Part shown: positions 2,712 to 10,565 of the stretch, piece by piece | Position numbering within the stretch: position 1 is the stretch's first letter | How the letters are laid out: each line of letters starts with the position of its first letter | Assembly: GCA_905181985.1 (NCBI GenBank) | Contig: CAJIZW010000001.1 | Coordinates: 1-43,824 of the forward strand | Length of the DNA stretch: 43,824 nucleotides | Reading direction: 5' to 3' | DNA from: an uncultured Paracoccaceae bacterium | GTDB lineage: Bacteria; Pseudomonadota; Alphaproteobacteria; Rhodobacterales; Rhodobacteraceae | Made by a program: the position numbers and the translations under genes | The notes under the pieces: model-generated | Seen by the model: the letters and a program-made list of their open reading frames with translations, nothing else | Told to the model about the DNA's origin: nothing | Databases searched by the model: none

Positions 2712-4163
2712 TTATAGAGTTTGAGCTAGATTAAGGAATTGCTTGGTATCCATATGCTGATGTAAATATTCAGCCAACTCATCTAATGTGTTATTAACAG
2801 ATCCTTGGTAGTCGCTAAGAACAGATGTGCTATTAAGATCTTGCAGAAATTCGCTTCGAAAAGTATCTGATGCAAACATTCCATGCAGGTAACATCCCAA
2901 AATTTTATTGTTTTTCCCAACTGCCCCGGAACCCTTTCCATCTATCATTAGCAGAGGGTTTTCACAGTCTGGACCAAATGTTTTACCAATATGCATTTCA
3001 TAACCAGAGATTTCTGCTCCACTACTAATGTGTTTTCCAGTAACATTTTGAAGTTTTTTTTCTGGGTGCATTGTTGTGCTGACATTTAGTAAACCTAACC
3101 CAGCGATCTCTGTAACATTCCCCTCTATTTTGTGTGGATCTTGTATCGTGTTTCCAAGCATTTGATACCCACCACATATTCCCAAAATATGTCCACCCCT
3201 TCGAATGTGAGCAAAAATATCAATATCCCAGCCTTGAGAGCGAATAAGTTGTAGATCAGAGATTGTAGACTTTGATCCGGGAAGTATTATTAACTTCGCA
3301 TCCCCTGGAAGTGGTTTTCCAGGTGAAATAATTTCTACTGAGATATTTTTCTCTAAGAGGAGTGGATCAAGATCGTCAAAGTTTGAAATCCTATTTAGTT
3401 TGGGTACTACTACCTTTATGTGACCCCCCTTTTTTTCCTTAATATCCATAATATCTTCTGCTGGAAGTTTCCAGGCAGATTGAAACCAGGGTAGAACTCC
3501 TAATGAACTCCATTTTGTTTTTAATTTTATATCTTCAATGCCATTTAAAAATAAATTTGGATCTCCTCGAAATTTATTAATTATAAATCCAACTATTCGT
3601 TTCCGATCTTCAGGTGAAATAACTACATGGGTCCCTACCAGTTGGGCAATTACACCACCACGGTCTATATCGCCTATTATTATTACTGGCGCCCCGATGG
3701 CTTCAGCGAACCCCATATTAGCGATGTCCCCTTTCCGCAGGTTAGTTTCGGCAGGACTACCTGCTCCCTCAATTATAATTAAATCTGCATTTTTTTTCAA
3801 ACGCGAAAAGCTTTCTAACGCCTTGCCTAGGAGTAAGGGTTTTTGAACGAAGTAATCTTTTGCCTGAAGAGTTGCAAAACGTTTCCCTTGAACTATTACT
3901 TGTGACCCATATTCAGATTCAGGTTTCAAGAGTATCGGGTTCATATCCGTATGTGGCTCACAATTACAGGCCATTGCCTGTAGAGCTTGGGCGCGGCCTA
4001 TCTCACCACCATCGGAAGTAACAGCAGCATTATTTGACATATTTTGAGGTTTAAAGGGACGAACTTTAAGCCCTTTATTTGTAAAAAAGCGGCATAAACC
4101 TGCAACAATCAATGATTTTCCAACGTTTGATCCTGATCCTTGGATCATTATTACTTTTGTCAT
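2712..4163 (-). CDS. cobQ: cobyric acid synthase
   Basis: 483-aa ORF; 'MIQGSGSNVGKSLIVAGLCR', 'PFKPQNMSNNAAV', class I GATase 'GHILGICGGYQMLG', 'CYLHGMF'. Confidence 0.95.
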   Translation of the reverse strand: MTKVIMIQGSGSNVGKSLIVAGLCRFFTNKGLKVRPFKPQNMSNNAAVTSDGGEIGRAQALQAMACNCEPHTDMNPILLKPESEYGSQVIVQGKRFATLQAKDYFVQKPLLLGKALESFSRLKKNADLIIIEGAGSPAETNLRKGDIANMGFAEAIGAPVIIIGDIDRGGVIAQLVGTHVVISPEDRKRIVGFIINKFRGDPNLFLNGIEDIKLKTKWSSLGVLPWFQSAWKLPAEDIMDIKEKKGGHIKVVVPKLNRISNFDDLDPLLLEKNISVEIISPGKPLPGDAKLIILPGSKSTISDLQLIRSQGWDIDIFAHIRRGGHILGICGGYQMLGNTIQDPHKIEGNVTEIAGLGLLNVSTTMHPEKKLQNVTGKHISSGAEISGYEMHIGKTFGPDCENPLLMIDGKGSGAVGKNNKILGCYLHGMFASDTFRSEFLQDLNSTSVLSDYQGSVNNTLDELAEYLHQHMDTKQFLNLAQTL

Positions 4164-8802: not shown

Positions 8803-8829
8803 AAAGTAATTTATGTTTAAAATTACTTT
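8803..8829 (-). terminator. intrinsic-terminator-like hairpin overlapping the stop codon of the ImuA-like gene
   Basis: Minus strand AAAGTAATTT-taaacat-AAATTACTTT-TTATATT; 10-bp stem with T-rich tail, AT-only except one GC pair. Confidence 0.55.
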
Positions 8830-9362
8830 CTGACAGTAATCTTTTTTAGATTATTTTCTAATTTCCAAGTTGATGGTGGAGTATGTCGTGACTTAATGCA
8901 CTCTAATTCCCACATAGTTTCCCTTGCAGTATGCTGCATCGACATAGACCAGCGGCTTTCTGCGCCCTGAACTCCTCCATTTTGTGATGTTAACATTAAA
9001 CAGAGGGCATGGTTGTCTCTTTCTTTTCTACCTGTTTCAGCAGCTAAATTTAAACGTCTTACAGATTTTAATGTTGGATGTGTGGTAATTTCGAGAACTA
9101 CTAACTTTGTGATTCCAGACCTTAGTGCTTCTTCCGCAGCCCATAAAATATCATTAGAACACCCCGTACTTATAGTTATTAGGCGTCCAGGATTAACCCA
9201 ACCTATAATTCCATCTGGAAAAAGTTGATCACTAAACCAATCTGGACGAATCCAGACTATTGGACCATTAATTTTTGTTGCTATCCAGAGGGCACAGGTG
9301 CGTCGAGAGTTTCCAAAAATTTCATGTGCCTTTTCAAAGGAGAATACAATTCCTTCGTCCAT
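8823..9362 (-). CDS. ImuA/RecA-like SOS mutagenesis accessory protein (orphan)
   Basis: ORF 8823-9425; internal ATG at 9362 gives MDEGIVFSFEKAHEIFG..., likely start. 'AHEIFGNSRRTCALWIATKINGPIVWIRPDWFSDQLFPDGIIGWVNPGRLITIS...DILWAAEEALRSGITKLVVLEI' matches ImuA-type architecture. Confidence 0.65.
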   Translation of the reverse strand: MDEGIVFSFEKAHEIFGNSRRTCALWIATKINGPIVWIRPDWFSDQLFPDGIIGWVNPGRLITISTGCSNDILWAAEEALRSGITKLVVLEITTHPTLKSVRRLNLAAETGRKERDNHALCLMLTSQNGGVQGAESRWSMSMQHTARETMWELECIKSRHTPPSTWKLENNLKKITVRK

Positions 9363-9432
9363 TATTAAGAATTTTCTATTTAAATTTAGATTACTATTGA
9401 AACTGTTATATTGCATTCTATTCAATTAACAT

Positions 9433-9447
9433 GTTCTTGTTTTGTTC
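9433..9447. promoter_or_regulatory. LexA box, alphaproteobacterial GTTC-N7-GTTC type
   Basis: GTTC(9433-9436) TTGTTTT GTTC(9444-9447), exactly N7; lies between a possible minus-strand -35 TTGAGA (9446-9451) and -10 TAATTG (9423-9428). Confidence 0.75.
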
Positions 9448-9524: not shown

Positions 9525-10565
9525 TTGGAAAAATTATTGCTGGGAGATAGTGAGTTAAAAGTTTCCCAATATTGTCTTGGAACAATGACATTTAATAAAA
9601 CTAATGAGGTAGATTCTCATAATCAAATTGATTTTGCTATCGATAACGATATTAATTTTCTTGATACCGCTGAAATGTACCCAGTAAATCCGATATCTAA
9701 AGATACTATTGGTGTAACTGAAGAGGTAATTGGTAGTTGGCTGAATAAAACAAAGAAACGAGATTCTATTATTTTGGCAACAAAAATTTCTGGTGAAGGA
9801 AATTTAGATATTAGAGGTGGGGAAGCTATTTCATCTGATAGCTTAAGAAGATCCATTGAATCTTCACTACGTAGATTAAAGACAGATTATATTGATTTAT
9901 ATCAACTTCATTGGCCTAATAGGGGAAGTTATATGTTCAGAAAAAACTGGACTTTTGACCCATCTCAACAAGTTAAAGAAAATACGGTATCCCATATTGA
10001 AGATACTCTAGAAGAGTTACAAAGGCAGATACAGATTGGGAACATACGTCATTTTGGCTTATCTAATGAATCTGCTTGGGGAACGTCAATGTGGATTCAA
10101 ATTGCAGAAAAATTAGGTGGCCCAAAAGCTTTAAGTATTCAAAATGAGTATTCTTTATTGTGTCGACTGTTTGATACAGATTTAGCTGAATTATCCGTAA
10201 ATGAAAATGTTTCCTTACTAGGTTTTTCTCCTTTGGCGGCTGGTTATCTTACGGGAAAATATCAAAATAAGAGTATACCAAAAGGCTCTAGAATGTCTAT
10301 TAATAATACGATGGGTGGAAGGTCTTCTCCACGCGTTTTACCCGCCACTCAAGGATATATTGATATAGCAAAAAAATATAATTTGAACCCAATTCATATG
10401 GCCTTAGCTTGGTTTAAATACAGACCCTTCAAGGCTATTCCGATCTTTGGGGCCACGAATCTAGACCAGTTAAGAACTATAATTGACGGAATTGATGTTA
10501 AATTAAATAAAGAAATATTAGATGATATTAGTGAAGTTCATAAAGCTCACCCTATGCCCTACTGA
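9525..10565 (+). CDS. aldo/keto reductase (Tas-like NADP(H)-dependent)
   Basis: 346 aa, TTG start; 'SQYCLGTMTFNKTN', 'FLDTAEMYPVN', 'DYIDLYQLHWPNR', 'PIFGATNLDQL'. Confidence 0.88.
   Translation: MEKLLLGDSELKVSQYCLGTMTFNKTNEVDSHNQIDFAIDNDINFLDTAEMYPVNPISKDTIGVTEEVIGSWLNKTKKRDSIILATKISGEGNLDIRGGEAISSDSLRRSIESSLRRLKTDYIDLYQLHWPNRGSYMFRKNWTFDPSQQVKENTVSHIEDTLEELQRQIQIGNIRHFGLSNESAWGTSMWIQIAEKLGGPKALSIQNEYSLLCRLFDTDLAELSVNENVSLLGFSPLAAGYLTGKYQNKSIPKGSRMSINNTMGGRSSPRVLPATQGYIDIAKKYNLNPIHMALAWFKYRPFKAIPIFGATNLDQLRTIIDGIDVKLNKEILDDISEVHKAHPMPY

Follow-up and report, generated by a model that had tools for sequence, protein, structure and literature searches.

A probable dispersed, LexA-controlled ImuA-ImuB-DnaE2 mutasome with a detached OB domain in marine Rhodobacteraceae

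The imuA locus and its LexA box

The window, by which we mean the whole stretch of 43,824 nucleotides that was analysed, carries a short minus-strand gene, imuA, flanked by genes for an MFS transporter and an aldo/keto reductase and preceded by an exact match to the pattern GTTC-N7-GTTC. The features of interest are as follows.

8823..9416, minus strand: imuA, encoding a RecA-fold mutasome subunit of 197 aa without the Walker A lysine; stop codon at 8823-8825
9433..9447, no strand assigned: predicted LexA operator GTTCTTGTTTTGTTC, an exact GTTC-N7-GTTC separated from the imuA ATG by 16 bp
9525-10565, plus strand: aldo/keto reductase gene, divergent from imuA and beginning 77 bp from the imuA LexA box
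3494-3508: a second exact GTTC-N7-GTTC, within the coding sequence of the minus-strand ORF at 2712-4163 and probably there by chance

When opened from TTG the imuA reading frame spans 8823-9425, while the ATG at 9416, which gives the 197 aa product, is the likely start because the resulting distance of 16 bp between box and ATG is the commonest among relatives (44 of 77 imuA loci, with 15-17 bp in 62 of the 77).

The sole NCBIfam match of the protein is to the ImuA model NF033429 (E 1.1e-8), with a score under the curated cut-off of 150 bits, and the same model matches all 50 aligned relatives of the protein; a profile comparison by hhalign between window-type ImuA and the ImuA of contiguous cassettes reaches 99.9%. 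AlphaFold2 predicts the structure with confidence (pLDDT 90.5), and a Foldseek search with the model returns RecA as the top PDB structures (E 7e-10, TMq about 0.66). An hhalign comparison of the ImuA alignment with the single RecA sequence of the window's genome is weak (18%), and it is the fold comparison of the predicted structure, rather than this alignment with the genome's own RecA, that we regard as settling the RecA fold. A Pfam match to Transglut_N (E 0.09) was dismissed as chance. The preliminary description of this DNA, which had proposed an ImuA/RecA-like protein with neither imuB nor dnaE2 beside it, is borne out in both respects; family models and structure prediction alike keep the protein inside the ImuA/RecA-like families.

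The same description had drawn attention to the sequence GNSRRT, lacking the lysine of GKT, which is indeed present at residues 35-40. Across the aligned ImuA relatives the Walker A site reads HE-x-CG-x-x-RR and not GKT. Loss of both Walker A and Walker B has been described for proteobacterial ImuA (PMC12926913, PMC6511836), and loss of Walker A for the ImuA1 and ImuA2 groups (PMC12926913); the window protein, with its Walker A lost, agrees with the ImuA1 group of Proteobacteria. The missing lysine is therefore typical of proteobacterial ImuA and no mark of reduction.

The box upstream of imuA is the perfect operator that had been reported, and its significance lies in its position. The pattern occurs twice in the window against 1.0 expected, and genome-wide 35 times against 52 for a reversed control pattern, so that the count alone was rejected as evidence; of the genome scan that had been suggested, the tally does not exceed chance, while the placement before imuA does. 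An exact box stands just upstream of imuA in 79 of 80 named imuA loci as opposed to 12 of 1868 other windows from the same loci, which argues that its position is non-random, and it precedes imuA in all 30 sampled relatives. The window imuA is, by this pattern of conservation, very probably LexA-controlled. A minus-strand promoter whose spacer would overlap the box had also been suggested and could not be confirmed, a consensus promoter scan around the box having found none. With the aldo/keto reductase gene starting so close on the other side, LexA might touch the promoters of both genes.

The SOS gene set of the window's genome

The window belongs to a metagenome-assembled genome (MAG) of a marine Rhodobacteraceae bacterium, of 1.70 Mb in 140 contigs and 78% complete. 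On other contigs of this assembly lie five further genes with exact boxes, so that a lexA gene and operators placed before SOS genes occur together in one genome.

lexA, contig C118: exact box 27 bp upstream; assigned by family model
recA, contig C10: exact box 51 bp upstream; read from sequence
uvrD, contig C71: exact box 29 bp upstream; read from sequence
imuB, contig C87: exact box 18 bp upstream; assigned by family model
dnaE2, contig C6: exact box 13 bp upstream; assigned by family model

The presence of lexA, with a box of its own, answers one of the checks proposed for this locus. The idea of a stand-alone ImuA in a reduced mutasome falls, since imuB and dnaE2 are found elsewhere in the same genome, each behind its own box. 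ImuB has lost the catalytic acids of the Y-family and still has its RecA-NT and ImuB-C regions, as expected of a mutasome ImuB with a dead active site, and DnaE2 scores 1150.8 bits with NF004225, above the cut-off of 939, which places it in the error-prone DnaE2 subfamily. No further Y-family polymerase besides ImuB was found in the assembly. Within the genus, dN/dS is 0.15 for imuA, indicating purifying selection, 0.12 for imuB and 0.07 for dnaE2. What is unusual is the scattering of these genes and the detachment of the OB domain of DnaE2, neither of which is visible from the window alone.

Scattering of the three genes across the Rhodobacteraceae

The mutasome usually occurs as a gene cassette. 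In a sample of 148 relatives examined for gene layout, with scattered genomes counted by hand, imuA, imuB and dnaE2 lie at separate places in 34 genomes of the same family; contiguous cassettes are found in other genomes of that family and in other families of the class. In the scattered genomes no contig has imuA closer than 100 kb to imuB or dnaE2. The distance between imuB and dnaE2 is at most 5 kb in four of these genomes (G034, G046, G060 and G081) and roughly 30 kb in three others (G008, G014 and G076). An assembly artefact can be excluded, because G016, G037, G038 and G048 consist of 1-6 contigs. The arrangement in the window's genome and in these few-contig relatives is therefore one of three loci, neither a contiguous nor a two-part cassette, contiguity being the usual layout of the system and not a condition for its function.

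When the ImuA alignment was run against named genomes it gave 80 loci, nearly all from Rhodobacteraceae or Roseobacteraceae by title and including Planktomarina, Shimia, Phaeobacter, Sulfitobacter and other genera, and neither imuB nor dnaE2 was seen in their flanks of up to 3 kb. The closest named relative is an uncultured marine Rhodobacteraceae MAG (L143). At the partner genes, an exact box precedes imuB in 29 of 30 scattered-type loci, and dnaE2 in 11 of 31, with one mismatch, mostly a box ending in GAAT, in a further 17; of the three dnaE2 loci left, two have a start that is cut off or unresolved, so that the box cannot be judged there. A search for the canonical beta-clamp pentapeptide pattern found none conserved in scattered-type ImuB or DnaE2, and the ImuB proteins of cassettes in this family failed the same pattern too.

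Two individual observations belong here. The near-complete genome G054 has imuA, imuB and a boxed OB gene of the kind described below, with no match to the dnaE2 core. In the cassettes of the family (L116-L128), an exact GAAC-N7-GAAC lies inside the coding end of imuA (...NKSGT...), 23 bp before imuB, which could be an internal operator or a coding constraint, and may be coding only.

The break in DnaE2 and the free OB gene

In each of the 31 scattered-type DnaE2 proteins the chain stops just past the motif HP-x-x-LLR-x-x-LTP, before the OB domain, whereas all cassette-type DnaE2 proteins run through this domain and nearly all reach a common SRDFH-like end. In the window's genome, residues 2-946 of the protein align with positions 5-940 of NF004225, and the full chain including the OB domain, which is usual and not universal for DnaE2 (PMC3919608), is lacking.

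A search with the OB domain of cassette DnaE2 located a stand-alone OB gene elsewhere in the scattered genomes. The free OB proteins, at 36 loci, are of 113-153 aa, except for a 393-aa frame in G087, and an exact LexA box stands before the gene in 33 of the 36 genomes, mostly 1-3 bp before the start. They match NF004225 at 948-1039, exactly where the DnaE2 core stops, scoring 106 bits with the DnaE2 model and 34 with the best of the DnaE1 models, and mostly share 50-66% identity with the OB domain of cassette DnaE2; Pfam sees only a generic OB domain in them. The gene is present in 31 of the 34 scattered genomes, and these 31 keep all four parts; G047 and G067, both near-complete, show no such gene. 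Five viral-contig matches of the OB alignment proved to be whole DnaE-type polymerases with a fused OB domain and were discarded. The exceptional G087 frame (C42:83777-84046; L266, L299) combines the free OB domain with a low-complexity stretch, has no exact box, and is possibly an early stage of the split.

The OB gene was not found in the window's own 78% complete MAG. Three genus mates (G001-G003) carry it between htrA and a ferredoxin gene; the box before it is exact in G001 and G002 and has one mismatch in G003. A DNA search run without a positive control gave no match in the window's MAG to the 3.3-kb flanking region of these genus mates, and as the whole region is unmatched there, the absence of the gene is probably a matter of missing sequence.

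Probable order of events and the two apparent systems of Dinoroseobacter shibae

In a tree of the DnaE2 core, the split type needs a single change, and the SH-aLRT value of the split group is 93 with G087 included and 99 without it; G036 forms a long branch whose placement is unsure. The free OB domains form one clade within the DnaE2 OB domains (SH-aLRT 93, from few columns). Just outside the split group branches G007, in which the three genes are already apart and DnaE2 still has its OB domain, which suggests that scattering came first and that the OB domain then moved to its own gene.

Dinoroseobacter shibae appears to carry two systems, a scattered set on the chromosome and a conventional cassette on a plasmid. 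In G038, a conventional imuA-imuB-dnaE2 cassette lies on a contig of 126,304 bp, while the chromosome has the scattered set together with the free, boxed OB gene; on the D. shibae plasmid NC_009957 a fused DnaE2 occupies much the same position as on that contig, and a plasmid cassette of this species has been mentioned (PMC9426580). The two forms of mutasome can thus be compared within one strain.

A proposed mutasome assembled in trans and its alternatives

We consider it highly probable that the window gene is the imuA of an ImuA-ImuB-DnaE2 mutasome that is complete and dispersed, each gene being under LexA control of its own, with the OB domain of DnaE2 detached and the complex assembled in trans. 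What can be read directly from the genomes are the genes, their boxes and their scattering, the intact C-terminal regions of ImuB, the break point of DnaE2 and the free OB gene in relatives that include the three genus mates; from these we infer joint induction, complex formation in trans and a role of the OB protein as a subunit. Briefly, DNA damage would activate RecA and lead to self-cleavage of LexA, whereupon the single boxes before imuA, imuB, dnaE2 and the detached OB gene would be freed together. ImuA would then join ImuB, a Y-family protein with a dead active site, at its RecA-NT region, as ImuB binds ImuA through RecA-NT in other species (PMC11791113), and ImuB would hold DnaE2, which performs the synthesis in other species (PMC3919608) and would here copy past the lesion in an error-prone manner, while the free OB protein would probably provide binding to single-stranded DNA as a separate subunit. 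We would give an even chance to the further proposal that the DnaE2 of a large clade of Rhodobacteraceae is a two-subunit enzyme whose catalytic core and free OB-fold subunit come from distant, separately LexA-controlled genes, and in which the module that binds single-stranded DNA can be set or exchanged independently of the polymerase.

Other readings of the same data have to be weighed against this one. The distance of imuA from imuB and dnaE2 in every scattered genome could reflect functional uncoupling, with ImuA, alone or with the OB protein, acting apart from the polymerase, for instance as a regulator of RecA, and the boxes marking a separate SOS role; G054, where imuA, imuB and the OB gene occur with no dnaE2 match, would fit, as would the report that Myxococcus ImuA is a DNA-enhanced ATPase (PMC12926913). 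We think this very unlikely, given that ImuB retains the region that binds ImuA, that imuA, imuB and dnaE2 co-occur in nearly all scattered genomes, and that the window ImuA has no Walker A motif. About as unlikely, in our judgement, is a degenerate mutasome, with scattering and OB loss as signs that the system is falling into disuse and imuA as a mere remnant: dN/dS of 0.07-0.15 for all three genes, boxes held at nearly fixed spacing over dozens of genera, the retention of the OB domain as a boxed gene and the survival of all four parts in 31 of 34 scattered genomes speak against decay, for which one might cite the streamlined genome, the shortened DnaE2 and the lack of a dnaE2 match in G054, where imuA and imuB remain.

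The origin of the OB protein allows a further alternative, namely that an unrelated OB-fold gene was recruited from elsewhere and DnaE2 merely lost its own domain. OB folds are common and the Pfam result is generic, yet the DnaE2 model is the best match by a wide difference in bits and at exactly the missing positions, the identity to cassette OB domains is mostly 50-66%, and the free proteins cluster inside the DnaE2 OB domains, albeit on few columns, all of which makes recruitment extremely improbable.

Relation to known systems

The imuA-imuB-dnaE2 cassette of Caulobacter, Pseudomonas and the D. shibae plasmid has the same three families, LexA control and an inactive ImuA and ImuB, but it is contiguous and its DnaE2 includes the OB domain, with the SRDFH end in most, whereas here three separate boxed genes encode the parts and DnaE2 is cut before the OB domain. 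The split imuA'-imuB and dnaE2 of mycobacteria likewise place dnaE2 away from imuB, under common SOS control and with assembly in trans of the kind proposed here; there imuA' and imuB remain together (PMC6511836), while here imuA is separate too and the OB domain forms a fourth gene. A truncation of the same type appears in 'several DnaE2 sequences' without an OB domain (PMC3919608), and the passage of that paper on these proteins mentions neither a lineage nor a free OB gene, in contrast to the separate boxed gene found here. Split cassettes are already known, as are some DnaE2 proteins without the OB domain (PMC3919608). Among open-licence papers we came across no description of three-way scattering in this family, nor of a free OB gene; what looks new is that scattered-type DnaE2 stops before the OB domain and that a boxed gene of its own encodes this domain.

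A lineage in which every part is unlinked offers a natural dissection of the mutasome, in which each part, the OB domain included, could be deleted or induced alone in cultured marine bacteria. A further suggestion is that, over dozens of genera, shared control by a single repressor can take the place of operon linkage in a multi-subunit polymerase.

A further boxed reading frame

At G000:C46:10537-10656, on the minus strand (L015, L135), an ORF of 40 aa follows an exact LexA box at a distance of 53 bp; its product has a single hydrophobic stretch, MINDLKYILSSTPYELAKDALGVISIMVIIGVGLYLPNLV. Three ORFs of this type were compared with Pfam and NCBIfam and matched neither. Of 61 relatives, 24 have a similar ORF, and in at least 17 of these an exact box lies upstream. 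The product is a candidate for an SOS-induced inhibitor of cell division like SidA or YneA.
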